A DNA stretch of 64,000 nucleotides, taken from Sipunculus nudus. Lineage: Eukaryota > Annelida > Sipuncula > Golfingiida > Sipunculidae. A program made the position numbers and the translations under genes. Shown here in pieces: positions 20,791-44,989 of this stretch (position 1 is the first letter of the stretch; every line of letters begins with the position of its first letter). The stretch covers positions 96,892,624 through 96,956,623 of the forward strand of contig CM049308.1 of NCBI GenBank assembly GCA_026874595.1. The letters are read 5' to 3'. The notes beneath the pieces were generated by a model. It did not search any database. It saw only the letters and a program-made list of their open reading frames with translations, and was not told the DNA's origin.

Positions 20791-21372
20791 ACAAAAGTTA
20801 TAGGGGCACCTAATGGGAAAATATTAAAACTATGAATTATTCAACTTAATAGGGCATAATCCCGCAAAATAAAACAAACATTGTCCTAGAAGAGCACACC
20901 ACCGATACGTCTGCCGAATTCGGAGAGTAAAATCAGAACGGAAGCAGGTAAACCATGGTCCAGGAAAAACCCAACTCCGTATTAATTATATAGAATATTA
21001 AAGCGTAAGGCGAGTTTTGTAATTTTGTGTATCTCCTCTGAAACCACCAAACGGATTGCCGTGATTTTCGACATTTATATGCTCCGGATTTGTCCGAAGA
21101 GATTCCGCCCATTTTTATTCGCAGTATATGCGTATTACGTGCATATTTAATCATTTTAATATTTGCATCCCCACGGGCGCCTCTTTTCTTTGCGTCTTCG
21201 AGCCCGGTAACACAATGACCATAGAGCGTGATGGCGGGACAGAGATTTACTCCGGGGGCCCTATTTGGGGATTTTGAACAATCAGCAGCTAGCAGTCACC
21301 AGCCCGAAATAATCCCCATCGGCGATCCCTTCTCAAACAGAATTGAACGAATTGTTTTGCAGACCTTCCTAT
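20791..21372. other. Left flank of the gypsy insertion
   Basis: No gene recognised. It ends with CTAT, the left copy of the target duplication. Confidence 0.4.
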
Positions 21373-21636
21373 TGTAGTAGAGAGTTTCCCCTGGACATCA
21401 TCCACCGTGACACCAGGCACATCTGGGCATGCGCACTGTAGAGAGTTTCCCTTGGACATCATCCGCCGTAACACCAGGCACATCTGGGCATGCGCACTGA
21501 GAGAGTTTCCGGTTTTCCAAGCAAGAAGGCTTCATATTGAACTATACTGCCGGGGAATCCGTGCGTAATCTGACACTTATCGGATTCATCGGCCACGTAA
21601 GTTTCATGTAAGCGTTAGGTAAGACTCCCGCTTACA
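21373..21636 (+). repeat. 5' LTR of the gypsy element
   Basis: TGTAGTAGAGAG to CCCGCTTACA, 264 bp. It contains an internal direct duplication of about 60 bp: AGAGAGTTTCCC...GCATGCGCACTG occurs twice and the motif AGAGAGTTTCC a third time. Confidence 0.95.
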
Positions 21637-21639
21637 TTT

Positions 21640-21657
21640 TGGCGACGAGTTAATCGG
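21640..21657 (+). other. Primer binding site candidate
   Basis: TGGCGACGAG begins three bases after the LTR. Its first ten bases are complementary to the 3' end (CTCGTCG plus CCA) of tRNA-Ser(GCU) as I remember that sequence. The tRNA assignment is from memory; the position is as expected for a PBS. Confidence 0.65.
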
Positions 21658-22540
21658 TTGCTAGCGTGTCTTTGCTAGTTATCGGCAGAGACTTTTTTCA
21701 CTGGGGAAGTCATTTTCCCCCGGTGATTTCTTTCCTCAGTAAATCACCACAATTTTCTCTTCCGATATTAATAGCCTTCCCTAACCACTTCGTCACTTGT
21801 TAGGTTTAACTTAGACCAGTTGAACCGCATTTATCTGTTTTACTGTCATTAATTCTCTGCTTAGGAGTAATTGACACTGTAGTGGTGCGCTCTGTTATTA
21901 TCGCCCAACCCCGCTTGACGTCCACCTGACGTGATTTTCCGTTTATCTCTCAGCTGTGTTGTCAACACATCATCGCTCAGCGCCGTTGACAGCAGTTTAT
22001 CGCTCAGTGCTGTTGTCAAACAGTCAGTCAGTAGCGGTGTTGACAGTCCTATTGGTTTGTTGGCACTTATTTGTTAGTAAAGGCTGACAGTATTCTTTCA
22101 CAATAATTTTGCTTACAACCTGCTGTTTGTCAGTATTATTTAACCAGCACTTTTTTTCAGGCCTATTTTTTTCTCATTGTGTGACCCCACTGCAAGTAGT
22201 TCATGCCATTAGCCCAATATTTTTTTTAACAGAGCCTGTCACTACCCTGATTCTTATAATATTCATATACCTCATAGTAACATATTTTATATCATATTGC
22301 TTATCTATTATACTGCTGTGCCTGCTTTTCCTTTAACTCAGCACTGTAATATGCAATAATCCTTAGCACCTTCAATTGCCTTATCTAGTTTATGTTTTTG
22401 CATGTTGCATGATTCAATGCTTTTTCTGCTTTATCTACCAGTCACTTTTATCTGATTCTGTCCATCCTGAGGCGAGGTGGTAGAGCTATTTTTCGCATTT
22501 TATGTATAAATATATCTACAGCTCCAACATAAACTAAACC
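21658..22540 (+). other. Leader of the gypsy element
   Basis: About 0.9 kb without recognised coding sequence. Three or four imperfect copies of a CGCTCAGYGCYGTTGWCA phrase lie at about 21950-22045. Confidence 0.5.
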
Positions 22541-22786
22541 ATGTCCACTCCGACTCGTATATTGAATCTCCGTTCTGCCACTCTTGAAGAGATATCTGCT
22601 CATCTGGCAGATTATCTCAATGCTGACTCTGCCGCTGCAATTCTTTTGTTGCGTGCGGAAAAACCAGATTTTTCCATTAATGATCTGCCGGGAGTGACAG
22701 GTGTTCCTGATACTGAATGGGAAAATTTAATACGCACTTCCAGGATTTCAATTACCACGGTTGGTGAGATTCAAAGTGAATCCTAG
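22541..22786 (+). CDS. HhH (ComEA-like) module at the start of gag
   Basis: This part of the element reads as an 81-residue segment whose pattern resembles a ComEA-type helix-hairpin-helix domain: LRSATLEEISAHLADYL, then AAAILLLRAEKPDFS, then DLPGVTGV. In ComEA-like domains the same spacing is NxATxEEL, an alanine-rich helix ending in R, PF and DLxxVxGIG. HhH domains generally bind DNA or RNA backbones. I read it as the N-terminal module of the element's gag region; function is inference. It is part of the LTR fossil. Confidence 0.55.
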   Translation: MSTPTRILNLRSATLEEISAHLADYLNADSAAAILLLRAEKPDFSINDLPGVTGVPDTEWENLIRTSRISITTVGEIQSES

Positions 22787-22885
22787 CTTGTAGGTACAGA
22801 TATTCCAAAGGAATGCACGAAGTTTCCTTCAGCTGGCACTGACCCTCATTCTCTAAGAATTCTATCAACAATTCCTAAAGATAAT

Positions 22886-25200
22886 GTGTATGGAAAGCCT
22901 GTTGGCCCAATAATTGATGAAACCACTTCAGACAGGAAAGTCATAATGAGGGAGGGTTTTTGGGGCTCATCACAAATGCCGGATAGACTCCCCTTACAGC
23001 AGACTGATTTTCATGACACCAATTCTCCAGGGCAGCAGTCAACTGTACCTTATTCAGAAGAAAGTTCTATCAGCTATGATATGGCCCATTGCACTCCATT
23101 ATCTACAGCAGACAATCTAGCTCGCCCTGCCCGACAACAAATAAATACAGTCCCACAGGTAATCCATTCTGTACATAAAATTGTTAACAATATTCCCCCT
23201 CAGGATATACATGGAACATATGATCTGGAAACGGATGTGATACATCAAGCACCATCAGGTCGGCCTTCCCCTAAATATAAGCAGCCTAAGGCTACCAGGC
23301 ATGGCCATACATATGGGAGGGATCAAACTGGGCCCGTTCCTATGCAGAGTACACCTGCGCCACAGTCACATAGACCACACCATACTTACCGGCCCCTTCT
23401 TTCCGGATATGTTGATCATCAGATATATGTAAACCAACAGGTAATGTCCCAAGCGCGCCCTTACTTAGGGGACCCTGGCCAAGGTCATTACCCAATGCCT
23501 TACTACCCATACCTATTCCCAGGATATCCTAATTCCCCCATGTATCCGTTGTACGCCCCTCCACCTCCACCAATGTTTGCTCACACTCCTACCCCTTTCG
23601 CTTCCCCCGTTTTACCCCTGCAGCCATATCCGCTGTTGCCTGATCAAACATATGCACCATCACCCCTTGTTGCATCTAGGACTAGGGAAGATCCCAGGCT
23701 GCTGCCAATACCAGGAATGTCTGCTGATCCAACGCAGATATTACAGGGAGATATGGATCATAGACCCCGTCATGCACATATGCAAGATGTACAGGTTGCA
23801 AACCAAAGGTCAAGGTGACAATATTCGGGAAGGTATGGTAATACAGTTTTACAGCCAGAAACTACCCATGCTCCACCCAAAATACCCAATGCTGTTTCCC
23901 CTTACTCACAAGTTAGGGAACACAAGGATTGCCGTCCTAGGAGCAGGTCAAGGCCAAAGGAGTCTAGTAACACCCACCAGTTCAGCAGAAGTCAGTCCCC
24001 GGCTGACCATGCTCCAGGCAGAGGGAGGCCTCTGCAACGGCCATCTCCGCGTGAAGACCCTTATAGACATTCTTTTGGCCGAAGTTCCAGTTCCTCATCA
24101 GATTCAGGGCCCTTGGAACCTGAATGCGTGAGATTTGATCGTCATAACAGCAGGTCGTTTGAGTCAAATCCTGGCCATGGACAAAGGGGGAGATCTCCAC
24201 CCCCGCCAAAGCTATCCAGTTTCTCTGGAGACGGGGAGTGCAGCTGGAAATCATTCATCTTCCAATTAGAGAGATATGCTTCCAGATACAACTGGTCTAT
24301 TGACAAAAAGGCAGAACGCCTGGTAGATTGCCTGACAGGGAAAGCCCTAGAGCTGGTCAGGAAACTGAATATTCAGGATGACTATCGCAGCATAAAAGAA
24401 AAGTTGCACAGTCGATTTAGGCAAAGTGATGAACCAATTACTGTCAGGAGGTCACTAGAGTTTGTGAGACAAAATGAGGATGAAACATTGGAAGCGTATG
24501 GCCAGCGAGTTTTATTTATGGTTTTAGATGGTTTACCTGAGGCTAACTGGAACATAGTGGAACAACTGGCCGTAGAACACTTCTTGAGAGGTTGTCTTGA
24601 TAAGAATGCGACAGCCTCAGCCATGGACAAGAAAATCTCAAACTGTCAATAGGGCAGTAAAACATGTCAAGAGCTTTATCAACAATAGTAGAGTTATTTT
24701 TGGGAAGACCGCTTATCTCTGACTCCAGTGACGACCTCACAGATGACATGACACCTGGAATATGACAAGCATCCTTGAGGCAGAAGCAATTTCAGCGAAC
24801 TTGACTGAAGCAAAACACACCTGTGCCTACATGGCATCATGATCCCGCAATCTTGACACCATCTTCTCCACAGCACCATTTAAGAGCTCACAGCCAAGAT
24901 GCGAAGTCAGAGAAAAACAAGTCAATTTCTGATCAGGAAGTGAAGCTGTCAGACATCCTGGCTAAGATTAATGCCATGGACGCAAAGCTGGCACAGTTGT
25001 CAAAAACTAAGCCAACAGTAACTTTCCAGGAGCGCCCACCAACACCACCTCCCATTCCAGATCCAAAGGAAGCCATATGTTTCTACTGTCACCAGAAGGG
25101 ACACTATGCAAAGTCCTGCTTGCAGAAAAAATCTGGAAGAAGCCAAACTAGCCAGGACAATACAAATTTAAACTTAAATGGTCGTATCTGGTGGCCGTGA
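22886..25200 (+). pseudogene. gag region of the gypsy element (broken)
   Basis: About 2.3 kb. The first part is Pro/Tyr/His-rich and low in complexity. A Retrotrans_gag-like core follows at about 24.2-24.65 kb, recognised by the pattern FSGDGECSWKSFIFQLERYA, KALELVRKL and RFRQSDEP typical of gypsy capsid domains. Near 25.08-25.12 kb a CCHC zinc knuckle reads CFYCHQKGHYAKSC (C-X2-C-X4-H-X4-C), the nucleocapsid RNA-binding module. The region is interrupted several times. Confidence 0.85.
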
Positions 25201-28200
25201 TGCGACCTCAAGCTTGGAAAAAGGCCGCTTTACACTTAGCCGGACAGACGTAAATGTGGATCAGGAATCCACTCTGTCAGTTGCTGAAAACAAATGTAAT
25301 CCAATGACTGAAATGACTGAAATTATAATGCATATAAGGCAGTCAAAGGGATTAAACTTGATCATACCCATAGCTATCAACGGAATAAAAACATCCGCCA
25401 TCGTCGAGAGTGCCGCTCAAGTTACTGTAGTCAGCTCTGATCTAATGGGTATTCCAGAAGACCAACTGACTAAATGCCCAAAGGTACAGTTAACAGGAAT
25501 TGCTGGTGGTCGTGGTATCCAAGCCCACCAGTTGCTACAAGTTCCAATACAAGTTGGCAACTCTGTCTTCTTGTGGGATGTATTTCTGGCCGAGATAAGA
25601 GACCCGGTCCTGTTAGGACTTGACTTTCTGGTGCGGCATAGATGTCAGATCAACTTAATGGACAACAGCATCTCTGTAGATGGTGAACGAATCTATGCAA
25701 CACTTAAGAAAAGCTACCAAGGGGAAGAATGCCACGTCTATAAAGCGATTGTGCCCAAATCATGTTGCATACCTCCTAATACACTGATGAGAATCCCTGT
25801 GGAAATAGCGAAACAGGGGTCGCCAGCAACAGAGAACTTCGTTTTGGAACCCAGTAGCGATCTGGTTAATTTGCGACCCTCCTGTGCCTTGATCCAGAAC
25901 AAAGGTTTCTTTGATGTGACGAACGAATCAAATACATCAGTCAAATTGGCCGCTCAAACCATTGTGGGCACAGCAGTTCAAGTAGAAGACATCATGGAAG
26001 GCCCAGATCCCGTGGCTTGTGGCTTTCTGTCATCTAGCATGAATGATTTTGTATCGGCAGAGCTGACAAAATCTGGTCTACAGCATGATAATTCAGATGA
26101 AGAGAAAGGGAATACAGAATCATCAAAACTGGAAACGGCTGAGGTGGTGAGAGTATCAGTATCAGAGTCACTTGAAGAGCTTACAGCCAAAATGCCATCT
26201 CATCTGACCAAGTTGTTTAAGGATTCGCAGCAGGGTCAGCCTGAGGAATCCCTAAAGTCATTAGGCCAGTTGCTGCTGGACTATGAGGACATCTTTGCCA
26301 AAGATGACTTGGATCTGGGCTGCTTATCCGCAGTTAGACATAAAATAGAGACTGGGGACTCCCCACCTGTAAGACATAGGCTGCTGCGGACTCCTATCGG
26401 GTTCCAAGAGGAGGAAAGAAAACACCTTCAAAACTTGTTTGATGCCGGCGTTATAGAACCATCAGAATCGAACTGGGCTTCAGCACCAGCATTAGTGCGA
26501 AAAGGGATGGGTCAGTCCGTTATTGCGTTGATTATCGCGCCCTTGACGAACGAACAGTTAAAGACAAGTATCCCCTACCTTTAATCGAGGATTGCCTTGA
26601 TACCCTAACTGGTACCAAATACTTCACTTGCCTTGATCTAGCTCAAGGATACTATCAGATCGAACTCGATCAGGACTCCAAGAAGAAGACCGCATTCCTG
26701 ACTAGGAGTTTTCTAGCATACAAGAATGGGTTTCGGCCTTTGTAATGCTCCAGCAACATTTATGCGTGGCATGAATTACGTGTTAAGAAGGCTTACGTGG
26801 GAATCCCTGATTGTGTACCTTGATGATATCATCATATTAGGCAAGTCACCAGTAGAACATCTGGCGAACATTGAAAGAGCATTTTCTCGGTTTCGACAAC
26901 ATAATCTGAAACTAAAACCAAAAAAGTGCTCATTTCTGAAAAAGGAAGTAGAATTTCTTGGGAGATTAGTAACTACTGATGGAATCTCCATCACACAAAG
27001 TAAACAGGACGCTATTGCTGCTTGGCCCACACCCAGCAATAAAAAAGAACTCGAGGGGTTCCTAGGCTAGGTGAATTATCACCGGTCACACGTCCAAGGA
27101 TTTGCTGAGTAACTGCTCCTTTGTACCACCTCACCAAACCAAAGGTTGTCTTTTTTTGGGAGCAGGAACATGAAAATGCCTTTGAACACCTAAAACACCT
27201 GCTCAGTGATGCCCCACGTCTTGCTTTTCCACTTCCTGGAAAACAACCCATTCTCGATTGCGATGCCTCAGATACTGCAATTGGGGCAGAATTGTCTCAA
27301 CTGCAAGAAGGCAACGAGAAAGTGGTGTCATATGCTAGTCTGGTACTGCTGCCACAGCAACGCAAGTATTGCACAACTAGAAAGGAACTGCTGGCTGTGA
27401 TTCATTTCTGCAGGCATTTCAGACACTACCTTCTCGGCAGTAGCTTTATCATCCGTACAGACCACAACAGTTTGGCATGGTTTCGTAACCCAGAAGGCCA
27501 GCTAGCCAGGTGGATAGAAGAACTGGGCCAGTACGATTTTAGGATTATGCATAGACCAGGAAATAAGCACAGTAATGCAGACGCACTTTCCAGAGTGCCT
27601 GACCGCTTAAGGCCTTGCAACTGCTATGAAGCTGGTGGAAATCTCTCGGATTTACCATGCGGCGGCTGCAACTATTGTACACGAGCTAACAAACAATGGG
27701 CAAGATTCCAGTTGGACGTGGACGACGCGGTTCCACTTGCTTTAAAACCTGGCACTGAACTGACCATGGAGTCAAGTGTCGTGCAGCCTCACTCGTCTGA
27801 CTCTGCGCTGACGGCGGGCTCGCTGGAAGAGCAGGTGGATGAGTTTCAAACAGAATTCGGGTCATCAGCAGCCAGTTTAGTACCAGAATTGGAAGAGCCC
27901 CTGGGTGATCCCGTAAAAGGTCAGGATGGACCAGAGCAAAATTCTGATATTGACACTGATCAAAATGTTTGCACTAATTGGCTTGAAGCATACTCTGTCG
28001 AACAATTGCTGAATCTGCAACAGGAGGACTCTGATCTGAAACCAATCTTCACCTGGCTTGATGCCGGGGAACCCCCGCAAGCAGAGTTGTTCTTGCATAG
28101 TTCTGCCACCAAGCGTCTGTGGACGCATAGGAAGCAGCTCGTTCTAAAGGACAAGTTGCTGTTTTACAAATGGGAGGATGTTGTCAAACCAAAAGGCTAC

Positions 28201-29620
28201 TGTTCATAGTCCCCAGATCCTTGCGTCTGGAAATACTGGAGATGTGCCATGATGCTAAAACTGCTGGACATCTCGGACGAGAAAAGACAGTCGCTCGAGC
28301 CCATCAAAGCTTTTTCTGGATCCAGATGACAACAGATGTAAATAATTATGTGATGAACTGTGGCACTTGTAGCAGAAACAAAAAATCAAGCCGGAAGTGT
28401 AGGGCATCTCTGAATCCATACAATGCAGGTTTCCCGATGGAACGTGTGCATTTGGACATCCTAGGTCCCTTCACGCCAAGTGAAAAAAACAACAGGTACG
28501 TGCTAATGGTAATAGATCAATTCTCAAAATGGACTGAATGCCTACCCCTACCAGAACAATCGACGGAATTAATAGCAGAAAATTCCATCACTCACTTTGT
28601 CTGCAAGTTTGGCTGCCCAGTCACCATCCACAATGATCAAGGGGCTAATTTCGAGTCAAACCTGTTCACAACATTTTGCTAGTTAATGGACATAGCAAAG
28701 ATTCGGACAACACCCTACCATCCGGCCTCCAATGGCCAGATTGAAAGACAAAACAGAACGGTGCTGCAAATGATAAGATGCTATATCCAGGACAACATTC
28801 GGAGCTGGGACAAGGACCTACCGGTTCTGAGCATGTCTCTCCGCTCAGTGAACAAGAGCACAGGGTTTACAGCCAACATTATGATGTTGGGTAGGGAAAT
28901 CATCCAACCGGTTGATTTGTTGCTTGGTACCATTCAGGAACGATTACAGTCCAATTCCACCAGTGAATGGGTGATCAACCTGATTAAACAAATGTCCACC
29001 GTTCATGAATTTGCCAGAGAACATCTGAAAACCAGCCAGATTTACCAAAAGCGCCACTATGACCTGAAACAACGTAATGCAGTTTTCCAGCCTGGGGACC
29101 TAGTCTATTCACTGAATAAAAGCACAAAGAAAGGAGTTAGTCCCAAATTACAGCCGATAAGGAATAGCCCATACTTAGTCGTCTCGGGAGAACATCCGAT
29201 CTATCTCATCAAAACTAAGAAACGAGAGAAATTTCTTCACCATGACAACCATAAGTCATGCACCGATAGTGCGATCCCTCTGTGGCTTAAGAGAGCGAGG
29301 AACCAATTCTTTAAGGATGAGAATATGGACAGTAAAATTGCTGGAAACGGCGACAAAACTGTCGAAGAAACTCTTGACCTGGAATCAGTTGCAGGCAACT
29401 ATCAAACGCTTACAGGTTCTGATCCAGATGCAACAGCTGGAAACGGGGATGCCTCTGGCAAGGAACTTTCTAGTGAGACATCACTTCCCAGACAGAAGAA
29501 ACCCCCAGACAAGGTCCTGAAGGATGAGTGCACAGGAAGGAAAACCTCCCGTGGACGGGACATCAGGCTTCCTAGGCACCAAGGATTTTCTTACATAGGG
29601 CCGGCTGGTTCTAGCAAATA
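25200..29620 (+). pseudogene. pol region of the gypsy element (broken)
   Basis: Domain order: aspartic-protease-like domain about 25.35-25.65 kb (followed by LLGLDFLVRHRCQINL, typical of retropepsin ends); reverse transcriptase about 26.3-27.05 kb (DLAQGYYQIELDQDS, and the catalytic YLDDIIILG); RNase H about 27.2-27.6 kb (DCDASDTAIGAELSQ, TDHNSLAWF, and HRPGNKHSNADALSR at its end); an H2C2 zinc-binding integrase N-terminus about 28.24-28.4 kb; the integrase core about 28.4-28.9 kb with DDE-type surroundings (HLDILGPF, NDQGANFES, NGQIERQN); and a GPY/F-like tail about 29.08-29.22 kb. The order and motifs assign it to Ty3/gypsy. The reading is broken several times. Confidence 0.92.
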
Positions 29621-29684
29621 GTTAAGTTATACTAACTTAGTTAAGGATGAAAGAGTAAATACAAAAAGAAATAACACGTTTTCA

Positions 29685-29702
29685 TTCGTTTTTTTTTGCA
29701 GG
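29685..29702 (+). promoter_or_regulatory. Splice-acceptor-like site before the TatD frame
   Basis: A T-rich run followed by TGCAG at 29698-29702 lies ten bases before the TatD start codon at 29713. Env genes of retroviruses and errantiviruses are expressed from spliced RNA, so a similar spliced message for this downstream gene is plausible. The donor was not identified. Confidence 0.5.
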
Positions 29703-29712
29703 AATATATAAT

Positions 29713-31209
29713 ATGAATGACCCTTTGGCAGAGGTGCATTTTGTCCCCGACTATGATGAGCCACTCCCAGGGCAATCGGTATCCGCTCTTGCAGAAGTAG
29801 TATCTCTGGAAGCAGCTCCGCAGATTTGGACGTCCTCAGCAGGGCCCAACCAGTCGGATGACGCCACTGGAACAATTCCAAGGAAGTCAAGGCGGGGTGA
29901 AACCCTTTGTGTGATCTGCCAGAAATGGGATAAGCATCAGCGTAGGCATGCCCTACGCTATCACTTACCTTGGTGGTTCCAGCCATGCTCAGCCTGTTCG
30001 CAATGCAGACGGCAAGAAGGTCCTGAGAATCTAATCCGAAAACACCATTCACAACACCAGTTCAGCGTGGACGTCCAAATGTTCTACAAATGGTGTGAAG
30101 GTCTGTTACATTCCCTGAAGAAGGAGCTTTGTCTGCAAAACCTAGATGAATTGTTGTCCTTTGCGATCAGGGATAATCTCTACACTAGCAATTCGTTCAC
30201 TGAAGCGGAACAAACCAGTTTATATCAGCTCTCTCAACAGTTTCATTGGTCCGTCACCACAGGTCAGATTCTAGCCAGCCCACCCAGCTGTATCGGAGGC
30301 TTGCTGCATTGGCACACACTGTGTAAAATCATTGCTAAAACAGACCAACCATTCCAAGTCACACTGCCTTACCTTGAACCCATCCATGTTGCAGACACAA
30401 CACAGACTCCAGACCAACATTTAGTACCATCCGTCATAGACTCTCATGCCCATCTCGACCGCCTTCTCTTTCAAAACCACTGTGACTCACTACTGCAGTA
30501 TGAAGAGCAATTGGTGCAGCCTCCTATTGAAATCAAGGGTATCGTTGCAAACTTTGTGCACCCACACCAGTGGCATAGCCAACAACACATTTGTCAAGAC
30601 AACAGGATCAAATTCAGTTTTGGAGTTCATCCCCGATTCGTATCAGGCCGACGTAACCTTGAAAGGACCCTGTCCGAACTGAAATATCGTTTACAGACTC
30701 CGGATTGCTGTGCCATGGCTGAAATCGGGTTGGAATATTTAAATACGACCAACAGGGCTCAGCAACTTCAGAGGGAATTTCTACATCACGCCCTCCAAAT
30801 GGCTAAAGACAATGACCAGACCATCATATTACACTGTAGAGATGCCGGCAGTGGGGATGCTGCTGCGGATGTTTTGTCCCAATTGAAAACCCTTGGACTC
30901 AGTCAACGCCTTCTCCATCGCCATTGTTTCTTTGAGAGTGTTGCTGAACTGAACCACTGGCTGTCAGAGCTCCCAAACTGTTTCTCTGGAATTACATCCA
31001 AGGTGTTGGAACATGCTTGTGTCCGCAAGGCTGTTGAGATGCTCCCTTCAAGCAAAATGGTCCTGGAGACTGATTCCCCATATCTCGCCGCCCCGCCCTG
31101 GGACATTCTCCCTACCGCCCGAGCAGTAGCTGAGCTCAAAGGCATTCCCCTGGCAGACCTACTATCTGCCTGCAACCAGAATGCCAATTCTCTCTATGGT
31201 CAATTTTAG
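29713..31209 (+). CDS. Zinc-finger + TatD-family nuclease inside the gypsy element
   Basis: An uninterrupted 498-codon frame between integrase and the 3' LTR. Residues 66-84 form a C2H2-like finger (C66, C69, H79, H84), followed by C92, C95 and C98. Residues about 240-498 are a TatD-type amidohydrolase-fold domain with the whole metal-site set: HxH in DSHAHLD (H245, H247), E337 in EIGLEY, H374 in LHCRDAG, H404 in HRHCFF, and D454 in LETDSPYL. Known TatD proteins are metal-dependent nucleases; animal TATDN2 is the closest kind I can name. The start at 29713 follows a splice-acceptor-like TTTTGCAG. It takes the place of an env gene. A role in processing element DNA or RNA, or against host defence, is speculation. 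It is the only long frame of the element that is whole. Confidence 0.9.
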   Translation: MNDPLAEVHFVPDYDEPLPGQSVSALAEVVSLEAAPQIWTSSAGPNQSDDATGTIPRKSRRGETLCVICQKWDKHQRRHALRYHLPWWFQPCSACSQCRRQEGPENLIRKHHSQHQFSVDVQMFYKWCEGLLHSLKKELCLQNLDELLSFAIRDNLYTSNSFTEAEQTSLYQLSQQFHWSVTTGQILASPPSCIGGLLHWHTLCKIIAKTDQPFQVTLPYLEPIHVADTTQTPDQHLVPSVIDSHAHLDRLLFQNHCDSLLQYEEQLVQPPIEIKGIVANFVHPHQWHSQQHICQDNRIKFSFGVHPRFVSGRRNLERTLSELKYRLQTPDCCAMAEIGLEYLNTTNRAQQLQREFLHHALQMAKDNDQTIILHCRDAGSGDAAADVLSQLKTLGLSQRLLHRHCFFESVAELNHWLSELPNCFSGITSKVLEHACVRKAVEMLPSSKMVLETDSPYLAAPPWDILPTARAVAELKGIPLADLLSACNQNANSLYGQF

Positions 31210-31518
31210 TGACTTCTTGTAGGGTGACTGGTTCCCTTACCTTGATGAACCGGCGGCTCGTTGTACCATCTTGGTCTGGGTGGCTGGTCTCTCCCCACCT
31301 AGCCATATTTTCTGTTTCTATAGCTAAGTTTGTCTCGCCTTATACTCTTTGGATTGGGCTGTGTAGTGCTTTACCAAGTAATTTTTCTTTAAGAGCACAT
31401 AATTTATGCATGGTATGGTCATGATCATTTATTTTATGAAATTTGCATTTCTTTTATTATTTAACTGTTTTTTTTTCTTTCTCTCCCCTCCTTCCATGCT
31501 TGGTTTACGCAGCTTTTC
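31210..31518 (+). other. 3' untranslated part of the gypsy element
   Basis: No coding sequence recognised. A pyrimidine-rich run lies at about 31465-31500, just before the polypurine tract. Confidence 0.5.
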
Positions 31519-31534
31519 GGGGAATGGGGAGGAG
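31519..31534 (+). other. Polypurine tract
   Basis: GGGGAATGGGGAGGAG, 15 purines in 16 bases, directly abuts the 3' LTR, as required for plus-strand priming in LTR elements. Confidence 0.88.
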
Positions 31535-31798
31535 TGTAGTAGAGAGTTTCCCCTGGACATCATCCACCGTGACACCAGGCACATCTGGGCATGCGCACTG
31601 TAGAGAGTTTCCCTTGGACATCATCCGCCGTAACACCAGCCACATCTGGGCATGCGCACTGAGAGAGTTTCCGGTTTTCCAAGCAAGAAGGCTTCATATT
31701 GAACTATACTGCCGGGGAATCCGTGCGTAATCTGACACTTATCGGATTCATCGGCCACGTAAGTTTCATGTAAGCGTTAGGTAAGACTCCCGCTTACA
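31535..31798 (+). repeat. 3' LTR of the gypsy element
   Basis: 264 bp, the same length as the 5' LTR and differing from it at one visible position. It is followed by the target duplication CTAT. Confidence 0.95.
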
Positions 31799-32307
31799 CT
31801 ATGACCGGGGGGTGGCACGAATAGGGCTCCTTCCTTCGACCCCACTTACATGACCTGATATGCTTGAGCGCACTTAATATTGACTTAAAATAATTTGAAA
31901 ATTTGAGATTTTTTCTCATTACTGCAGTAACTAATGTAAAGCTCCTGTAAAAATGTCAATTTAATAAGTTTTACTGGTATTTGTTTCTTTTACATGCATG
32001 TGCCATCTCATTTTCAACGTTTATGTAATACACTTTGCTTAATGGGATATTATGGTGTAGAGTTTTGTACCATTCACTGCAAGGACCAACAAAAACTAAA
32101 ACATGATAAAGTAATATTTTAACACAACAAAAATCAAACTTATTGAACACCATACAAAAAAAACAAAATCCCACACCGGTCACATCCTGAGTGTGGAACT
32201 CAATGTCAGTATGCATTACAGGAGAAAAAAGTTTACGTCCACTTTACCATTACCAGTCAAATTCTGGTCAAATTCAAATCTCATTATGGACTATTATTAG
32301 TTCTTTG
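31799..32307. other. Gene-free stretch right of the gypsy element
   Basis: No coding or RNA gene recognised. Confidence 0.4.
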
Positions 32308-33222
32308 TAAAAATGGCTGAGGTAAAAGTGGCTGAGGTAATAATATAATGGCTGAAGTGAAAATGGCTAAATTACAAGTAGCAGGATTAAATTTTAACTT
32401 TGGAATTTAATACAATTTAATATTTATATCACAAATTATCTACATTAATTGAAAGTTTGTTGAACATTAAAAAACATATCATCACATTTTAAGAAAAGTT
32501 ATCTGCATTTTATAAATTTGGCAATGATCTGTTTGGGTGAATGCACCTGGAGAGTATACACAATGCTTTATAATTAAATTGATGGACCGTCAGAGTTACT
32601 GTGTAAACTTGATTAGCTTTATGGTTAGGAAATTAGTTACCCTGTGATCAAATGGTCATACTGCATGTTAAGTGTAGGAGCAGATGCTGAGCTCTTGGCG
32701 ATTAGAGAGCGGGTTTATACTCGATACTCGGGCTGAATTTATTTTGATCATGCAACTTTCCTTTTAGCCCGTTTTAAATAATGAAACTGAATGGATATCA
32801 AAGCTTACTCAGCTTTACTGAAATGTTTGTGAGACTGTAGATTTGAAGTTGACTGCATTTATTTTATTATTGATTACTATTATTAATTATAATGTATTTT
32901 TTGTGTTACTTCTTGGTTACAGTTATAATATGGGGTTTTAATTTGTTGTATATTGATTCCTTGTCAATTTCAAGAAGTATATATTTAAAATGATTCATTT
33001 GTAAAAGTCTATTATCAATTCCATTTTTATGGATCCTATAATATTAACCTGGTCAATATATCCTAGTCCGAAGATTCCCGTCTAAAATGAGTGTCTACCA
33101 TATGCAGTTTGCAGCTCAGCTGTGATCGTTTGAATTTCAAAATTCAAAATTTAATCCTTTTACCTGTTATTTTCCCTTCAGCCATTTTAACTCATCCATT
33201 ATTACCTTAGCCATTTTTTCCT
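32308..33222. mobile_element. 0.9-kb TIR element (MITE-like)
   Basis: The left arm begins AAAAATGGCTGAGGTAA and continues through GGCTGAAGTGAAAATGG to GGATTAAATTTT. The inverse of 33130-33222 gives AAAAAATGGCTAAGGTAAT, GGCTGAAGGGAAAAT and GGATTAAATTTT in the same order. The arms are about 90-100 bp and imperfect. The interior is AT-rich and non-coding. Exact ends and target duplication are not resolved. Confidence 0.7.
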
Positions 33223-33573
33223 GGCATCAGTCTATAGTATGGTAATGAAGGTGTCTTCGTTCTCCATAAAAACACAGGCGGATTTGTAAAAAGTAAATGA
33301 ATGAATAAAATCACGCAACAGTTTATGGCTTTAAGGTAATTCACAACAGTAAAACTGGGAATATAATTGATCATACTTTCTTTCCATGCTGAATCTATGG
33401 GACACTTTTGATGAATGTTCTGAAAATGCAAATGAAAATGCATATCTTTGGATTTCACTGAATATCACTGAACTTATATGAATGGGAGGGTCTATATTTT
33501 ATCTCTTTTCTTCAATAAATATATTCTGCAGATGGTGTTTCCCTGTATTATTACAAAGACCCCAGTATAACAA
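33223..33573. other. Intron-like stretch, nothing recognised
   Basis: AT-rich, without coding signal. It would lie in the intron before the exon at 33800. Confidence 0.35.
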
Positions 33574-33578
33574 AGGAA

Positions 33579-33663
<85 letters not shown>

Positions 33664-33683
33664 GTGAGTGTGTGTGTGTGTAT
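33574..33683. repeat. Compound microsatellite (AT)n(AG)n(TG)n
   Basis: An AT run to about 33632, an AG run to about 33660, then GTGA and TG repeats to about 33683. Antisense frames through it are low-complexity and not coding. Confidence 0.95.
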
Positions 33684-33799
33684 GTGCATAATATTCTCTG
33701 CCCCGTGTTCATTGTATTTTACAAGCATCCAAGTCAAACAAAGTACAGATATACATATACAGATAGAGTGAGGAAGTGGATGTATTATACTTTTCCCAG

Positions 33800-34083
33800 T
33801 GGCTGTGATATCAACTGGTCAGGGATCGACCACTATATGGATGCACACACAGTTTGGCTAGCCGCTATCATCACAGAGTACTTAATACTCACAAGCAGTG
33901 ACACAGCCCTGCCCAGATGCACTGGTCAGCTGAAGCATCATTACAAACACAACAGTGTGCATAGTACTGGGCGAGGCAGTGCTGGACAGCAGGGGGTAGT
34001 CAGATTAGATATGAATGAGGTATCACTGATCACCCCAGCCTCTTGGGACCCATCATTTCCTCCTGGTAGAAAGCTGGTTTGAG
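33800..34083 (+). CDS. Terminal coding exon of an unrecognised host gene
   Basis: A pyrimidine-rich stretch ending in TTTTCCCAG at 33791-33799 looks like a splice acceptor. The frame opens at 33801 (first base of the exon completes a codon) and runs 93 codons plus stop at 34081-34083: GCDINWSGIDHYMDAHTVW..., a hydrophobic segment TVWLAAIITEYLIL, a polar linker, and the C-terminus WDPSFPPGRKLV. Codon choice and composition are gene-like, with no repeats. The stop is followed 88 bases later by AATAAA. I do not recognise the protein and found no upstream exon in the window, although the gypsy element and the 0.9-kb MITE would lie in upstream introns if the gene extends left. Confidence 0.6.
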
Positions 34084-34238
34084 TGTTTGCCCTTCAAAGA
34101 CTTAATTCTTTCATTTAGTATGTATGCTTATTGCATATAAGTCATTGCCATAATTGTTACTATTTTCACAAATAAAACTGGTATTTTATAAGCATTTTCA
34201 TCTAAGATCTATTCCATGGACGGTTTCTTTTGTATGTA
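34084..34238 (+). promoter_or_regulatory. Putative 3' UTR with poly(A) signal
   Basis: Canonical AATAAA at 34171-34176, 88 bases after the stop codon of the exon at 33800. Cleavage would be expected within some 30 bases. The pogo-like element starts just beyond. Confidence 0.55.
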
Positions 34239-35332
34239 CAGTCGAGCTCACTTTGTGTCAAATCTGTTAATAGAAAATCCCGTTTATGGTCATATAAATC
34301 TGGAATCCCAAACCATTTCCTATATAAACAATGGTAAATCTGACCGTTTAATATCATGGAATATTGTCATAATCCCGTTTATAGTCATGCTTGGAACCCT
34401 TGGCAGTGATAAAAGTTCGCAGTTAATGTCACATCAAACGCCGACACAGCGGTCAATGAAGCCAAGCGTCTGTAATCGGTCAGGCGTATCAAAAAATCGC
34501 ATCTCCCACCTGTGTGCAGCATGCAGGTGCAGTGATGCATGCGTCACTGAGCTAATTAACTTCTTAAGATAGCACGGTAATCCAGATCATTGCGTTTCTT
34601 CGTACCTTAACAAGGGCGATGTTTGCGATCACATATTATACATAATGACCTCCTGGCCTTTGTAAAGCCGCGGTTTACACCTCAGTGACGTTCCGCCGAG
34701 ATGATATGAAGCACGAGCTCTAAACGTTGCTCACGACTGGAAATCCCCTATAAGGGTCCATGAAATGCTGGAGGTTTTGTGAGCACTGATGGAGATACCC
34801 GGTCCAAAACCTCAATCGCGGCAAAAATTTAGAAAGTCAACAATGGCATGACGATGACCGCTCCTGGAACATTCCTATCATAAAGACGATCATGGAAGTT
34901 TGAGTCATTAATAAGATATCTGGAAAATAAGGCGCAATAGTCGGGAAAGAATTATCTAGTAAAAAAGTTTATTATAAAACGTTAAAACTATGCAGCATAT
35001 TCCAAGACATTTGACCTCATAACCCAGACGCTACGTCATTTTCAGTTGGCAAGTCGGATTTTTGTCAGTTATTGCGGCATGCGGCACAAAACTTACAGGA
35101 AATAAATTGCCAGGTGCGCATAAACGTAATTGTATATGCCATTGTGCACTAAAAATATTGATAAACCTTTCTGTTTCCTTTTTAATGATGATTTATTTAA
35201 TATCATTCGAGACATAACGCTTCTTCTATGACTCAAAAGGACATCGATAATGAAGCCCGCATAATGTCACATCCCGGTTATTATCATAATTTATGCATGC
35301 ACCACCGGCATGACAATGAGCAGGCTTGACTG
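34239..35332. mobile_element. pogo/Tc1-type non-autonomous element
   Basis: CAGTCGAGCTCAC...TGTGTCA at the left end matches the inverse of the right end, CAGTCAAGCCTGCTCATTGT, as an imperfect inverted repeat of about 22 bp. Both ends are flanked by TA (34237-34238 and 35333-35334), the target duplication of Tc1/mariner/pogo elements. The 1.09-kb interior has no transposase. The 118-codon frame that starts at 34216 straddles the left end and is not a gene. Confidence 0.75.
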
Positions 35333-35968
35333 TATATGTCATAATGTTGATCAGTTTCTCACGTCACATGGTACATGTGTAGGCGAGTATTTGTCAGAGA
35401 CCATGACCACACGTTAGGCCCTGGCTTGGTGCGACTGTACGCTGTTCCGAAGCATTTTTATCCACAGCACCATACATATAATGGATCTATATATTGTCAG
35501 AATAATTAAGTAAAACGTGTATTTGTAGATAAGATTTTTAATGATTAACTGAGGTAGAAAAAGTATAGTATTTATAGGTTGGAATGTATGTGCGGCTTAT
35601 CACACGTGTCCAGCCAGATACGGCGCGCCCTGCCTCGGGGGTAGGGTTATGACATAATAGCAGGTCGGCGCTGGGTACAGGATTGTCCTGAAGGGCTGAT
35701 TAATTGCTTAAGATCAATTACCCATGCTACGCACGGTTTTGGGCGAACACGACAATCCGTACGGTGGTATATATATATATATATATATATAATATACGTT
35801 TGAATATGTGTGGATAACATATATGTATAATTATTTCTTTAAATATCTATCAATTTGTACATAGCTTGTACATTGTACAATGGTTATAAAATATGTTAAA
35901 CACATCAGCACAGTGCTGCTTGGCTGAGGCAGTCACCCCAGTGAAGGCTGACACTGCATGACGCTGCA
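35333..35968. other. Gene-free stretch with TA microsatellite
   Basis: A short (TA)n run at about 35768-35791; otherwise nothing recognised. Confidence 0.4.
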
Positions 35969-37013
35969 AGTAGTCCCCCATTCAGCGATAACTAATGAGC
36001 TGTTGTCAAGTAGTCCCCCATTCAGGGATAACTAATGAGCTGTTGTCAAGTAGTCCCCCATTCAGGGATAACTAATGAGCTGTTGTCAAGTAGTCCCCCA
36101 TTCAAGGATAACTAATGAGCTGTTGTCAAGTAGTCCCCCATTCAGGGATAACTAATGAGCTGTTGTCAAGTAGTCCCCCATTCAAGGATTACTAATGAGC
36201 TGTTGTCAAGTAGTCCCCCATTCAGGGATAACTAATGAGCTGTTGTCAAGTAGTCCCCCATTCAGGGATAACTAATGAGCTGTTGTCAAGTAGTCCCCCA
36301 TTCAGGGATAACTAATAAGCTGTTGTCAAGTAGTCCCCCATTCAGGGATAACTAATGAGCTGTTGTCAAGTAGTCCCCCATTCAGGGATAACTAATGAGC
36401 TGTTGTCAAGTAGTCCCCCATTCAAGGATAACTAATGAGCTGTTGTCAAGTAGTCCCCCATTCAGGGATAACTAATGAGCTGCTGTCAAGTAGTCCCCCA
36501 TTCAGGGATAACTAATGAGCTGCTGTCAAGTAGTCCCCCATTCAAGGATAACTAATGAGCTGTTGTCAAGTAGTCCCCCATTCAGGGATAACTAATGAGC
36601 TGTTGTCAAGTAGTCCCCCATTCAGGGATAACTAATGAGCTGTTTTATCAAGTAGTCCCCCATTCAGGGATAACTAATGAGCTGTTGTCAAGTAGTCCCC
36701 CATTCAGGGATAACTAATGAGCTGTTGTCAAGTAGTCCCCCATTCAGGGATAACTAATGAGCTGTTGTCAAGTAGTCCCCCATTCAGGGATAACTAATGG
36801 GCTGTTGTCAAGTAGTCCCCCATTCAGGGATAACTAATGAGCTGTTGTCAAGTAGTCCCCCATTCAGGGATAACTAATGAGCTGTTGTCAAGTAGTCCCC
36901 CATTCAGGGATAACTAATGAGCTGTTGTCAAGTAGTCCCCAGTTCAGGGATAACTAATGAGCTGTTGTCAAGTAGTCCCCCATTCAGGGATAACTAATGA
37001 TCTGTTGTCAAGA
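35969..37013. repeat. 40-bp minisatellite, about 26 copies
   Basis: The unit contains TAGTCCCCCATTCAGGGATA and ACTAATGAGCTGTTGTCAAG. The period is 40 except one unit near 36640 with a two-base gain (GTTTTATCAAG). Variants AAGGATA and GGGATA are interspersed. Highly homogeneous. No spacers, so not a CRISPR array. Confidence 0.97.
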
Positions 37014-37265
37014 AGAACTGATAAGAGACTGGGGTACCGGAAGGATGCGCTAAAAATGAACGCTCAACTGTGTTTGACATGAATATATTTATTCTGGAAA
37101 TGAAGGCCCCAAGCCCATATATCCAACATATATACATACAAAATACATAATACATGGTCACGTGGATAAAAATAATAAATGATAACGATAAATAATTAAT
37201 AAATAATCAATTAAATGAATATATTTTTTAACAATACACAGTTATCAATAATAAAATATTAAAAG

Positions 37266-38128
37266 TGTTACGGAACCCAACAACAACGTAGTCGTGACGA
37301 GCATAAATTTTGTTATAGAGATAAAAATAATCAGATTCTGCACACTAGGCTGCGAGTAATGTCTAGGGGAATGAATAAAGAAGTCAGGTGTTTTTTGTTA
37401 ACAAATAATTATAATTTATTCTTAAAACAATCCTAACATACAATTACACAGTAACAACAGTATAACAGTAAATCAACACAATTACACTGTATAATAAATA
37501 AAGTGTACAGTACCTGGATACCACTTCTGTCACAGCGACAACAAGTCTTTTAAAACGTATAATCCATATGAACAGTTCACATAAATCTCCTGAGAGAATA
37601 ATAGTCCAATTAAATCACAAAATCAATCTGTTGTAATCCAAAAGTGAAGTTCTTGTAATATTCCCGAAAGCAAACTGGAGACAGGCCGCAATTTATCTGC
37701 ATAGAGTTCGTAGAATCCCTGACACTACTGCAATTATCGGATAGGTCCAAAACTGACCCACACTCTTCCGTGTCCGCTGGAATATTTCTCTCTCCTCCCC
37801 CTCCCCCCCCGGCTCTAAAACACAGCCCCTTTTTATAACTTTTCATCCGAAAATTATAGAAACATCTATTTCACGAACAAACCCAAAGAACCCAACAATA
37901 CATAATATACACGCCCAAAGAACTTTACAAGACACGCGCTCATAGATCGCGTCCAGCCCAGAAAGTTCCAGATCAGCATGAGCGCTGTGTTTCTACACGT
38001 CAGAGTTCAACCAATGCGGATTACACCGAACCTGCAACACCCCGCCAGGCGAGGTTGCTACAGCAACGAGCCACGTCCGCGCCACACGAATCAAGTGTCA
38101 ACAACACATGTAGCAGACATCTGTAACA
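37266..38128 (-). repeat. Solo LTR, second copy, minus orientation
   Basis: 863 bp homologous to 13878-14768 along its length, read on the minus strand: TGTTACAG ... CCGTAACA. Flanking tetranucleotides AAAG and ATAG match at three of four positions, consistent with an aged target duplication. No internal region adjoins it. Confidence 0.8.
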
Positions 38129-38302
38129 ATAGAAATAAACTTTTTTTATCAACTGAATAAATACACACTGTAATATTATAAAGTAACTATTTGTGTTTCA
38201 CAAAAATGATTAACGTCAATGGTAATTACATAGAATCATTTTCATAACAACATAAAATATGATACATGGAAAACTGTTACACTTACTAGTTCAAAGAATC
38301 AT

Positions 38303-38790
38303 TTAGAAATGACTCTCTTTTAACAAATGCAAAATATACAAATGAAAGCTTATAATTGTGGACATTAATGAAATGAAATACATATCTTTAAATTCAGACA
38401 GATATTTTCCTCTTAATGAAATATATAAAGGACAATTAAATACAAAATGGTACTCATCTTCAATATATGATTCTCCATGTTTAAAGCAAAATTTACAACA
38501 TCTCTCTTCCCAGGCTATTTTCTTGTGGCGACCAACTTCTACTTCTAAGCTATGTGATGATGTTCTAAGTCTTGCTAAACTAATTCTGTATCTTTTATTT
38601 GGAATTGCTGATAAATATAATTCAGTGTTTAATAAGGGTTTAAAGATAGCATATGTTTTCTTCCATTATTTTCTATGTTAGCTGTCCATTCCTGTCTTTC
38701 ATTAACATGCAACCTTTGTTTGAAACCTGACAGAAATATATTTATATTACCTACATCTTGAAATATCCATGTATACCCAGTTCCTAAAGA
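38303..38790 (-). pseudogene. LINE (non-LTR) ORF2 C-terminal fragment
   Basis: Minus-strand reading gives the end of a non-LTR retrotransposon protein: FKQRLHVNERQEW, then after a one-base frame shift near 38640 NKRYRISLARLRTSSHSL, a cysteine/histidine cluster (CCKFCFKHGES), then IEDEYHFVFNCPLY and the stop at 38303-38305. The RISLxRLRxSSHxLxxExGR...C..C....EDExHFxxxCPxY pattern is characteristic, from memory, of the tail of many invertebrate LINE ORF2 proteins. The first frame meets a stop at 38629-38631. Endonuclease and RT domains are missing, so this is a 5'-truncated copy. Clade not assigned. Confidence 0.75.
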
Positions 38791-38867
38791 AAATAATATT
38801 TTTTTTTACCCTTGTTGCCCACGTATATACTTTCCTACTTCAACTAGCCTATGTAAATCTAGACTGG

Positions 38868-39023
38868 CCCAATCCATGAAATAGTTATGACTTAATTGTT
38901 GCTTCTGACAGAGAAATCAAACGTTCCCGCGTTGTATCGCACTTAGTATCGGTACCGCCATCTTGCGGCAACTCATATAACTAATTTTTTACTATCTGGC
39001 CCTCTTATTTCATGGACTGGTAA
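38868..39023. mobile_element. Small foldback element
   Basis: CCAATCCATGAAATA at the left is repeated inverted at the right (TATTTCATGGACTGG) with one or two mismatches. It is about 155 bp long and non-coding. Confidence 0.55.
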
Positions 39024-40239
39024 TCTTGGCCGGTTCCCGGACGGTCAGCGCCACACATCACCGCCTCGCTGAACTAAGGTCTTTTCCAGTGACGTCAGCA
39101 GTGGTCTTTCTCAGAATCTTTTTCAAAACCAATATGGTTCATTCAGTCATCGCCTATTACGGGCTTCCAATTAGCTACTAATATTCCCATTTAAATTGCT
39201 TATTATTTTAGACCGTCGCTTATGTTGAGTCCGGCAAGACTTAAAACACTATAACTCTCAGCCCCAGTGTTAACGTTTATCGGACCACCACTCCTGAAAG
39301 TAGGCGTAACAAACTCTGGCGCAGCCAATCAGCGCGATATACTCAGGTGCACACGACCAGCGCAGCCAAAATGTACCGGCTGACTGAAACGATCCCGATT
39401 CGCGAGTCGCAATTTGACAGTTAATACACGGGTTCAGACAAATGCTGCCAGCTGCTCTTGTTATCTCGGCAGAGGGAATTTTACTGGACCTGTCGGTCCA
39501 AAACTGTCACGATAGTGTCTACAATATGCACTTACATTTCGCCCATGGACGGTAATATTCGTTCAGCAGAGATATATCATAGGACACGAAGGTCCATGTG
39601 TGGAATACCAGGATACATGATTTCAGTGCGAATGTTACCAAGCGGGTCGAGCTGTGGGACTGCTGTTGGCGTTCTCAAAGCAACGATGCCACTCACATGT
39701 GGCGTGATGGGCCTGATATGCAAATTTAATACGGGGGAATCGTCAGGTCAACAAAGAGCCTTGTGACGCCTTAATATGCAAATATCAGGGATTCACAATA
39801 CGGACTTTACAGGGCTTTAATGATAAGAGCTGGCACTGAGTTAAGTCTATCGGTACATGGAATCACGTTTTATTTTGAGCATTTTATTAGTAAACGCAAT
39901 TACTAAAGCCCAGGCAGGCCTAATGTAAATCTAGCCAGGAGAAAATCTTCCACACTCACTAAGTGCTGCAGCATTTGGTGAAGAATAGGTAATCCCAAGT
40001 ACATATTTACAAAATTTATTGTGGACCTGTTTATTTTATGTGTTTTAGCTGTGTTTGTACGGTGGGGTAATTAAGCCTGTATGCCTTTTTGCTTGCCGGA
40101 ACAAGAGATTTCGTCAATTATGTATTCAGTTGTGTAAGTCTATTTGTCTGTAACGATGATAGTTTGTTTGTCTTGACTCTAGACACCATAAGTTTGCAGC
40201 AATTGCTTTGGAACTTGAATATTTAGTATATAATTGACC
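39024..40239. other. Gene-free, moderately GC-richer stretch
   Basis: It contains a CCAAT-box-like AGCCAATCAG at about 39325-39340 and two octamer words ATGCAAAT near 39718 and 39776. No following coding exon is seen, so no promoter is called. A 102-codon frame at 39458-39766 has no recognisable motif. Confidence 0.35.
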
Positions 40240-40592
40240 CCGATAGAAGCCTATTGTTTTTGGTCATAATCGGAAAAAGGTCAGGATCAAGGTCACAAAG
40301 ACCTCTAAAAATGTTTTTTTTTTTCTTCATATCTTTGTCAAGAATGGCCATAGCCGCATAAACTATAGCTCATTTCATTGGTCATTAAATGGCGTTTCAT
40401 CTTGGTGCATAACTGCCTCATTCTGCGGTTACCATGGTTACGCATTTTTTGGGGAAAAAAATCATAAAATTTCAAATTTGTTTACCTAATTTGTGTAACT
40501 TAGTTATTTTTAAACCCAGAGAGTTCTAGGTTTTTGCATCATGTAAAGTTTAATTAGTATTACACGATTTAATTTCAAGTATCCAGAAATGA

Positions 40593-40606
40593 CCACCAGG
40601 GGGCGT
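40593..40606 (+). promoter_or_regulatory. CTCF-like motif 1
   Basis: CCACCAGGGGGCGT fits the vertebrate core CCASYAGRKGGCRS at 13 of 14 positions. Binding is not shown by sequence alone. Confidence 0.4.
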
Positions 40607-40732
40607 TGTACAAGATTTTTTGCGATATTTCATTAATGAAGCACTAGAGGCACCAATTTGAAATAAGCGCTTCAAAACTTTATATATTATATATTCAATA
40701 TCTCGAAACGGATTTTTCATTTTGGAATATAT

Positions 40733-40746
40733 CCCACAGGGGGCGC
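40733..40746 (+). promoter_or_regulatory. CTCF-like motif 2
   Basis: CCCACAGGGGGCGC fits the core at 12 of 14 positions. Confidence 0.3.
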
Positions 40747-41110
40747 TGCGGGTCAACCACTTTTAAATATCGTTTTTGTCCCAAAGCTTCAAAACTACAA
40801 ACAATGTTACAAATTTTGTTGCACGATCTGAAACTTTTATCACTGGGCTTATTTCTGTTTACACTTGACCTCATTCTGCGGTTACCATGGTGACCTATTT
40901 AAGCGTAAAATTCTTGGCAATTTTGCCTTTACTTTTGTAACTATTTCGATTGTAAAGCTATAGAGGTCTAGTTTTTTTTGCATCGGGTAACATTTAATTA
41001 GATAAACACGATTTCGATTTTATTACAAAGTTTTGCAATATCTCTTACAACATCTCGTCATATGAGATTTTGCGAGATTTCACTTAATGATCAGCTAGAC
41101 TCCTCAGTTT

Positions 41111-41839
41111 TTCAGTGTGGCAGGACTCTTAACATTGACAGTTGTTTATTAGTATGCAAGGTCACACACTTACAGATGTCATACATGAGATAACCTTTCA
41201 CGAAGTATACAAGGTTTACATATTTTCTTATGACGCGTAACCAAAAAGAAGAATGAAGTTTCGAGATTACGAGGTTTACTTTAGGTAGATAGAGATAGAT
41301 ATAGAGGTAGAGAGAGGTGGCTGGAGCCGACGGCCGACCTGAAATGCACAGAACGCAAAGTCTGTATTACCATACCATAACTATTTCGTTTTATCATAAA
41401 GCAATAAAGATGTGTTATGAGTGTTATATCTCCTTGCAATAAACCCATTAAAATTACTTACTTCTGCATAGCTTACATTATCATCTTCAGAAGATACAAT
41501 GCACTTTATCTCAGAAAATATGTTTCAAAATACAATATGATCACATAAAACTGTTCATACACTGAACTATACACCAGTCCTGTATCGAGTGATATTAAAC
41601 ACCTAAACTGAATTGTTTTCTGATATATATGGTCATGAGTTAATCCCTTGTTGACAATACAAGTCCCTGTGTAACAGGTCTTGTGCTCAAAATTCACTAT
41701 CACATCTCAGCAGGTTAATTATGTTGTTACTCGTGGATGAGCAATAAGACAGGCGCTCCAAACGCTTAACCGGGAACCCGATCACTCGGTGGACATATCA
41801 GGATAATAAAAATCCCCTTGGGTAAACTATGTTGCTGAC
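41111..41839. other. Gene-free stretch
   Basis: No coding sequence. A phrase at 41664-41727 (TGTGTAACAGGTCTT ... GTTAATTATGTTGTTACT) recurs at 44241-44296 and flanks the gag fossil on both sides. Confidence 0.4.
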
Positions 41840-43300: not shown

Positions 43301-43532
43301 GTTGACACTAATACTGTAACTATGTATATATATAAAGTCAGTCTAATATATGCAAAACCTCTGAGTTGCAAGTATACAAAACTAGATAATTTAAAGTATA
43401 AACAGCATCAAAGCTATACTTTATGTACAAGTATGACAGGACGGTATCCCACTTTAACAACAAAATCAAAAAGATCTCCTTAAAAGGTTAGCTCTACACA
43501 GCATGAACCATAGCTCACATGAAAAATAACAT

Positions 43533-43985
43533 GACATACTCATCAATCAAACATTACTCAATGAGTACAAACCTTATGACATGATATACTCATTAATCAA
43601 ACATTACTCAATGAGTACAAACCTTATGACATGACATACTCATCAATCAAACATTACTCAATGAGTACAAACCTTATGACATGACATACTCATTAATCAA
43701 ACATTACTCAATGAGTACAAACCTTATGACATGACATACTCATCAATCAAACATTACTCAATGAGTACAAACCTTATGACATGACATACTCATTAATCAA
43801 ACATTACTCAATGAGTACAAACCTTATGACATGACATACTCATTAATCAAACATTACTCAATGAGTACAAACCTTATGACATGACATACTCATTAATCAA
43901 ACATTACTCAATGAGTACAAACCTTATGACATGACATACTCATTAATCAAACATTACTCAATGAGTACAAACCTTATGACATGCA
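43533..43985. repeat. 50-bp minisatellite, about 9 copies
   Basis: The unit holds AATCAAACATTACTCAATGA and GTACAAACCTTATGACATGA. The first copies alternate CATCAATC and CATTAATC, which shows a 100-bp dimer; the last four are all CATTAATC. It lies just upstream of the gag fossil. Confidence 0.95.
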
Positions 43986-44989
43986 TTACCAAGGGCTGAG
44001 CCACCACAAAGGATTAATAACTGAGTAATCTTTCCCGGACAGACCTCCAATAAACTTGTCAAATGCTATACATACGAACATTCCATCATGTGTGAACCCT
44101 TGTCCACAGATATGCACATCAGTACATTAAAAGAGAACCAATAGAGTAAAGACAACCTCTATCAATACAAGGTGTAAATAAAGATTATCTGTCAAAAGGT
44201 ATCACCACAAAAATACAGTCAACATGAAAACACAAAACCCTGTGTAACAGGTCTTATCTCATCTCATCAGGTTAATTATGTTGTTACTGAGAATCCTAAC
44301 AACTATGAATATAAGACTCGTACATCTCAGCAACACATTACTTAGGTATTAAAGATTAACCTACAAACAATAATGCTTTAAAAAATCAGAACAGAGCACA
44401 ATCTTCTTGTGGCTCAATACACTAATATGTCAATTCCACAACTTAAAGTTAATCTTACCTTGGAGAACTATCCCCTAAAATACTTCAGATAACACGACAA
44501 GGCCAAGTCTGATATTTATAACACGACAAGGCCAAGTCTGATATTTAGTAAGAAACTCCTCATAACAGGACTGTCATTACCAGAGCAGTTAAATCTCTGC
44601 ATCAACCATAACTTTATTTAAGACCTAAGATGCATCTCAAAATAGTCAGTCACAAAGAGACAGGCTGTACCAAGCTAAATAAATGGTATTCACTTTCTAA
44701 CAGCTTGCACTGAAGCTCATTCCGGTCTAAATATTGATGGCACTATTACGTCATCACCAAGCCAAAATCCACTGTTGAAAGTATATACCCACGTCACCAA
44801 CTAAATGATGCCTTAATTACTTGCCCTGCAAATGACGTCTGTATGGAAACGCAACAAGATACCGTGGACTCCAGGCAAAATTCCGGAGTTTTCCTAAAAT
44901 CGATCCCGGAGAACCACTAGCACATTATATGTTAGTTAAATACAAATAACATGAAAATAATATAAATTCTGTCACATCAGTTATCACTT
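43986..44989. other. Gene-free stretch beside the gag fossil
   Basis: It contains the second copy of the TGTGTAACAGGTCTT phrase (44241) and a 28-bp direct repeat ending in CACGACAAGGCCAAGTCTGATATTTA at 44490-44545. It may include LTR or leader remnants of the fossil element; ends not resolved. Confidence 0.35.

Follow-up and report, generated by a model that had tools for sequence, protein, structure and literature searches.

Is the gene for a TatD-family nuclease found inside a long terminal repeat (LTR) retrotransposon of Sipunculus nudus a working part of that element, or a gene that is merely carried along? The question is raised by a stretch of 64,000 nucleotides (assembly GCA_026874595.1, contig CM049308.1, positions 96,892,624 to 96,956,623; hereafter the window, to which all coordinates refer, features lying on the + strand unless stated otherwise), in which an element of Ty3/gypsy type carries an intact TatD gene in the env position. 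The answer considered here to be moderately probable is that TatD is an integral third open reading frame (ORF3) of the element, expressed from a spliced mRNA and encoding a nuclease that would process nucleic acid during the element's replication.

The gene occupies 29713-31209 and consists of 498 codons plus a stop, as the initial annotation had described. Among 1000 first-order Markov sequences matched to the element in length, no stop-free stretch exceeded 279 codons, and the frame is therefore longer than expected by chance. A search with the Pfam TatD_DNase profile (PF01026), which had been proposed as a check, matched residues 242-496 to profile positions 1-253 of 253 with an expectation value (E) of 2.5e-36. 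The TatD motifs are DSHAHLD at residue 243, GVHP at 304, AEIGLEY at 336, LHCRDA at 373, HRHCF at 402 (presumably resembling that of TATDN2) and ETDSPY at 452. When compared with the catalytic and metal-site residues listed for Escherichia coli TatD in PMC4176340, the product has six of the seven residues that were mutated in the active site of that enzyme, and the group-II HxH as well, in agreement with the metal-site motifs recognised earlier; the seventh residue, H64, is an arginine here, and the H64A mutant of the E. coli enzyme retained activity (PMC4176340). A TIM-barrel fold was modelled for the TatD domain, the alignment used for folding consisting of bacterial TatDs, so that this fold is partly imposed; folding from the single sequence was uninformative (predicted local distance difference test score, pLDDT, of 40). 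The N-terminal half of the product carries paired Cys/His motifs, and a Pfam search of its first 241 residues, relaxed to E 5, found nothing. An antisense frame of 141 codons (29627-30052, - strand) lies over the start of the gene and is probably incidental.

The surrounding element is an LTR retrotransposon of 10.4 kb (21373-31798) bounded by LTRs of 264 nucleotides each, at 21373-21636 and 31535-31798, and flanked on both sides by the target site duplication CTAT (21369-21372 and 31799-31802), which is 4 bp only. The two LTRs differ at a single position out of 264 (95% interval of divergence 0.01-2.1%), and because this divergence is so low their sequences suggest a fairly young insertion. 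A primer-binding-site-like motif, TGGCGACGAG (21640-21649), was recognised by eye just 3' of the 5' LTR, and the 3' untranslated region (31210-31534) ends in a polypurine tract, GGGGAATGGGGAGGAG (31519-31534), likewise identified by eye and adjoining the 3' LTR. Between these signals, Pfam matches in separate open pieces gave a PNMA-type gag, protease, reverse transcriptase, RNase H and integrase in sequence, and the element was classified as gypsy because of the domain order from protease to integrase. The initial annotation had placed the frame within matched LTRs and a target duplication, between integrase and the polypurine tract, and had interpreted it as a gypsy-borne TatD nuclease gene in the place of env; the LTR pair, the integrase pieces upstream, the tract downstream, the PF01026 match and the domain order all agree with that description. 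Each LTR also contains 2.2 tandem copies of a 61-bp unit (21377-21510 and 31539-31672; Tandem Repeats Finder, TRF), which is possibly a promoter or enhancer duplication.

In retroviruses and errantiviruses env follows pol and is expressed through splicing, the donor lying close to the 5' end and the acceptor immediately before this third gene. Candidate signals of both kinds are found here, as scored over window positions 1-46900 with metazoan matrices not derived from the host. The predicted acceptor GTTTTTTTTTGCAG (29688-29701), followed by G at the predicted exon start 29702, has the top score among 2606 AG sites of the + strand, a score that was reached by none of the 2807 sites of the - strand, and the TatD ATG lies 11 nucleotides downstream of it. 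The 5' LTR closes with a cluster of three donor-like GTAAGN sites (21597-21624), with first intron bases at 21597 (GTAAGT), 21608 (GTAAGC) and 21619 (GTAAGA), the last being the best-scoring donor of the element, tied with its counterpart in the 3' LTR. Elsewhere in 1-46900, on either strand, three such sites come within 30 nucleotides of each other only in the 3' LTR copy, and they did so in 2 of 2000 Markov sequences. The sequence ATGTAA, an ATG with an immediate stop, stands at 21606-21611 in the LTR just before donor 21619, and may form an upstream frame of one codon in the leader. Taken at the level of sequence, the acceptor and the donor cluster suggest an env-like spliced TatD mRNA. ORF3s of LTR elements have been described as expressed from spliced messages (PMC5408684).

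In the proposed mechanism, gag-pol would be removed by the joining of one of the terminal 5' LTR donors to the acceptor before the TatD ATG; use of the best donor would give a predicted intron of 21619-29701. The resulting subgenomic mRNA would be translated into a metal-dependent nuclease with the modelled TIM barrel, and its Cys/His-rich N-terminal part may bind nucleic acid. The most likely task of such an enzyme would be to act on replication-cycle nucleic acid, either the RNA strand of hybrids or the 3' ends of cDNA; since LTR elements produce both RNA:DNA hybrids and cDNA with single-stranded ends, the simplest use of the enzyme, and its putative benefit to the element, would be to remove RNA from the hybrids or to trim the ends. 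TATDN2 similarly degrades the RNA of R-loops, and E. coli TatD is described as a 3'-5' exonuclease on single-stranded DNA and RNA (PMC12709183, PMC10707325).

An alternative is that the gene is a passenger, a host gene transduced on one occasion or a nested insertion with no role for the element, which we regard as unlikely and yet the most serious competitor. Only one copy of the element is at hand, and its gag-pol region (22787-29618) is interrupted by seven breaks, two in-frame stops and five frame shifts as read from the open stretches, a count that omits one overlap which may be a natural gag-pol frameshift. Homopolymer assembly errors are not favoured as the origin of these breaks, since no listed run (at least 7 A/T or at least 6 G/C) falls in the break intervals, within which the exact break points were not placed. 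From the density of breaks in gag-pol, the TatD frame would be predicted to carry 1.5 of them, with a probability of 0.22 of carrying none, so that its intactness in one copy is not by itself evidence of selection. Against a passenger stand the strong acceptor right before the ATG and the donor cluster in the LTR; a retrocopied host mRNA would not be expected to bring its own splice acceptor, which argues against an origin from a mature message. The initial annotation had named an own target duplication or a poly(A) tail as signs of a chance nested insertion. Neither was seen: no poly(A) follows the TatD stop, and no direct repeat pair flanks the frame within 29580-31560 in the 20 repeat families, of 25, that were displayed; the search covered repeats of at least 8 nucleotides and would not detect a shorter target duplication. 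The 3' untranslated stretch moreover runs on into the polypurine tract and the LTR. Because of the acceptor before the ATG, the LTR donors and the lack of both a flanking repeat of that length and a poly(A), the gene is read as the element's own, and the sequence suggests that it belongs to the element instead of being a chance nested insertion.

If TatD is a true ORF3, its product could also act off the replication path by countering host defence or sensing, for instance by degrading small-RNA precursors or cytoplasmic DNA. The position of the gene and its splice signals would suit an accessory gene of this kind; the sequence does not separate this role from one in replication, and we give it somewhat less credence than the passenger explanation. 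An env-like job in membrane fusion or exit, to which the env position and the env-like splice signals might point, is highly improbable, given that the highest 19-residue Kyte-Doolittle mean of the product, 0.92, falls short of what a membrane span requires, that it holds only two sequons and that it is modelled as a soluble TIM barrel.

The reading of TatD as a spliced ORF3 is weakened, besides the single copy, the broken gag-pol and the unremarkable intactness of the frame, by several other observations. Splicing is predicted from site scores. The score of donor 21619 is reached in 1-46900 by 3 of 2540 GT sites on the + strand and 10 of 2643 on the - strand, and a donor within pol (28496) scores nearly as high, so that a single donor proves little. 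A TACTAAC heptamer resembling a branch point was noted by eye at 29630-29636, 66 nucleotides upstream of the acceptor; its role is uncertain because this exceeds the usual distance. No AATAAA or ATTAAA is present between TatD and 31900. The metal-site loop (residues 451-460) was modelled with a pLDDT of 62, and codon usage in pol does not single out the TatD frame, the pol-codon score being uninformative at -0.025 in frame, -0.006 in the +1 frame and 0.076 in the +2 frame. Searches for relatives also returned none in IMG/VR with protein queries, a collection not expected to hold animal genomes, and none in the 11 stretches retrieved from GTDB contigs with the TatD protein, where animal genomes are likewise not expected.

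The lack of relatives in viral and prokaryote collections is to be expected for an animal element, and nothing beyond bacterial TatDs was obtained from them. Plasmids yielded 52 records, in all of which coverage of the query stayed below 80%, with 26.3-28.6% identity among the 10 listed, and BFVD gave one match at E of at most 0.001, an uncharacterised Yasminevirus protein. The IMG/VR loci found with degenerate patterns (12 and 28) were attributed to chance, as none of the 40 matched TatD by phmmer at E of at most 1 and the best tblastn value was E 1.1. Within the window, tblastn of TatD found the gene itself and one match at E 0.20, and pieces of the element had no match in 1-21372 or 31799-46900.

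Comparison with known systems places the locus closest to the bdelloid rotifer LTR elements with a DEDDy-exonuclease ORF3, which are the nearest precedent. No TatD-bearing LTR element turned up among the listed matches of searches in the open-licence literature, consistent with the earlier statement that no described family of this kind was known; the presence of a nuclease ORF in the env position, on the other hand, has the bdelloid precedent (PMC5408684). The ORF3 enzymes of bdelloid elements include a DEDDy exonuclease and a GDSL esterase. The elements Juno and Vesta have, as here, a nuclease gene downstream of pol, where env would lie, whereas their nuclease is of a different, RNase D-like DEDDy family, TatD not being mentioned in PMC5408684. 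The present element resembles the bdelloid type in that an enzyme ORF lies 3' of integrase with its own expression signals, as judged by score. Animal TATDN2 is likewise a longer protein that ends in its TatD domain (PMC12709183, PMC10707325); it is a host gene product with a disordered N-terminus, in contrast to the paired Cys/His N-terminus of the TatD encoded inside the LTR element. The tables of matching chains obtained for the product contained no TATDN2 chain. The mollusc Gypsy clades of PMC6238403 share the gypsy superfamily with it, and the words 'env' and 'nuclease' are absent from the main text of that source. With retroviruses and errantiviruses the shared plan is a third gene after integrase, a 5' donor and an acceptor before the gene, whereas the third gene here encodes a nuclease without a membrane span. 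Joint mentions of TatD and LTRs in ballan wrasse (tatdn2 beside ghrelin) and in wheat (TaTDP1, a different gene) proved unrelated in the text seen, and a human TATDN2P2 retrocopy is mentioned in PMC5408686.

It is tentatively proposed, as something close to an even call, that an undescribed lineage of animal gypsy elements keeps a TATDN2-like spliced ORF3 for replication hybrids or 3' ends, and that many invertebrate genes annotated as 'putative deoxyribonuclease TATDN2' are parts of such elements, an example being the one in the giant squid Hox cluster (PMC6962438). In a figure legend of that source, a TATDN2 gene stands alongside ZMYM1 and POGK; its mobile origin is a conjecture. If TatD is kept by selection, an LTR element would be equipped with a further metal-dependent nuclease in addition to RNase H. 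It would then become possible to test why processing nucleases are taken up by LTR elements, with DEDDy in rotifers and TatD in the present case, and there would be reason to suspect that invertebrate TATDN2 gene counts may include transposon genes.

As for the remainder of the element, the gag region (22787-24649) contains one in-frame stop and matches PNMA in Pfam, the match to Retrotrans_gag being weak; its long, proline-rich start (22787-23815) had no Pfam match in the tested part (22886-23815). It is followed by a CCHC zinc-knuckle region (24823-25197; E 0.026, below the Pfam cut-off) and by a piece (25178-26581) whose aspartic protease match lies at the Pfam cut-off and which, judged by eye, also contains the start of the reverse transcriptase. 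Pfam matches then identify a further piece of the reverse transcriptase (26726-27067), RNase H (27121-28206) and the integrase zinc-binding domain with a piece of the core (28170-28679), while the remaining integrase core and C-terminal tail occupy 28686-29618 (weak rve_3 match, E 0.0072).

Scans of the window for tRNA genes and Rfam families gave no match. A 27-bp satellite of about 631 copies fills 46951-64000 and runs past the window edge (TRF), resulting in long false open frames on both strands. Minisatellite arrays were also located by TRF at 2453-5166 (39 bp), 10878-11552 (42 bp), 35967-37012 (40 bp), 42289-42818 (28 bp) and 43529-43983 (50 bp), the 42-bp array being 99% uniform.
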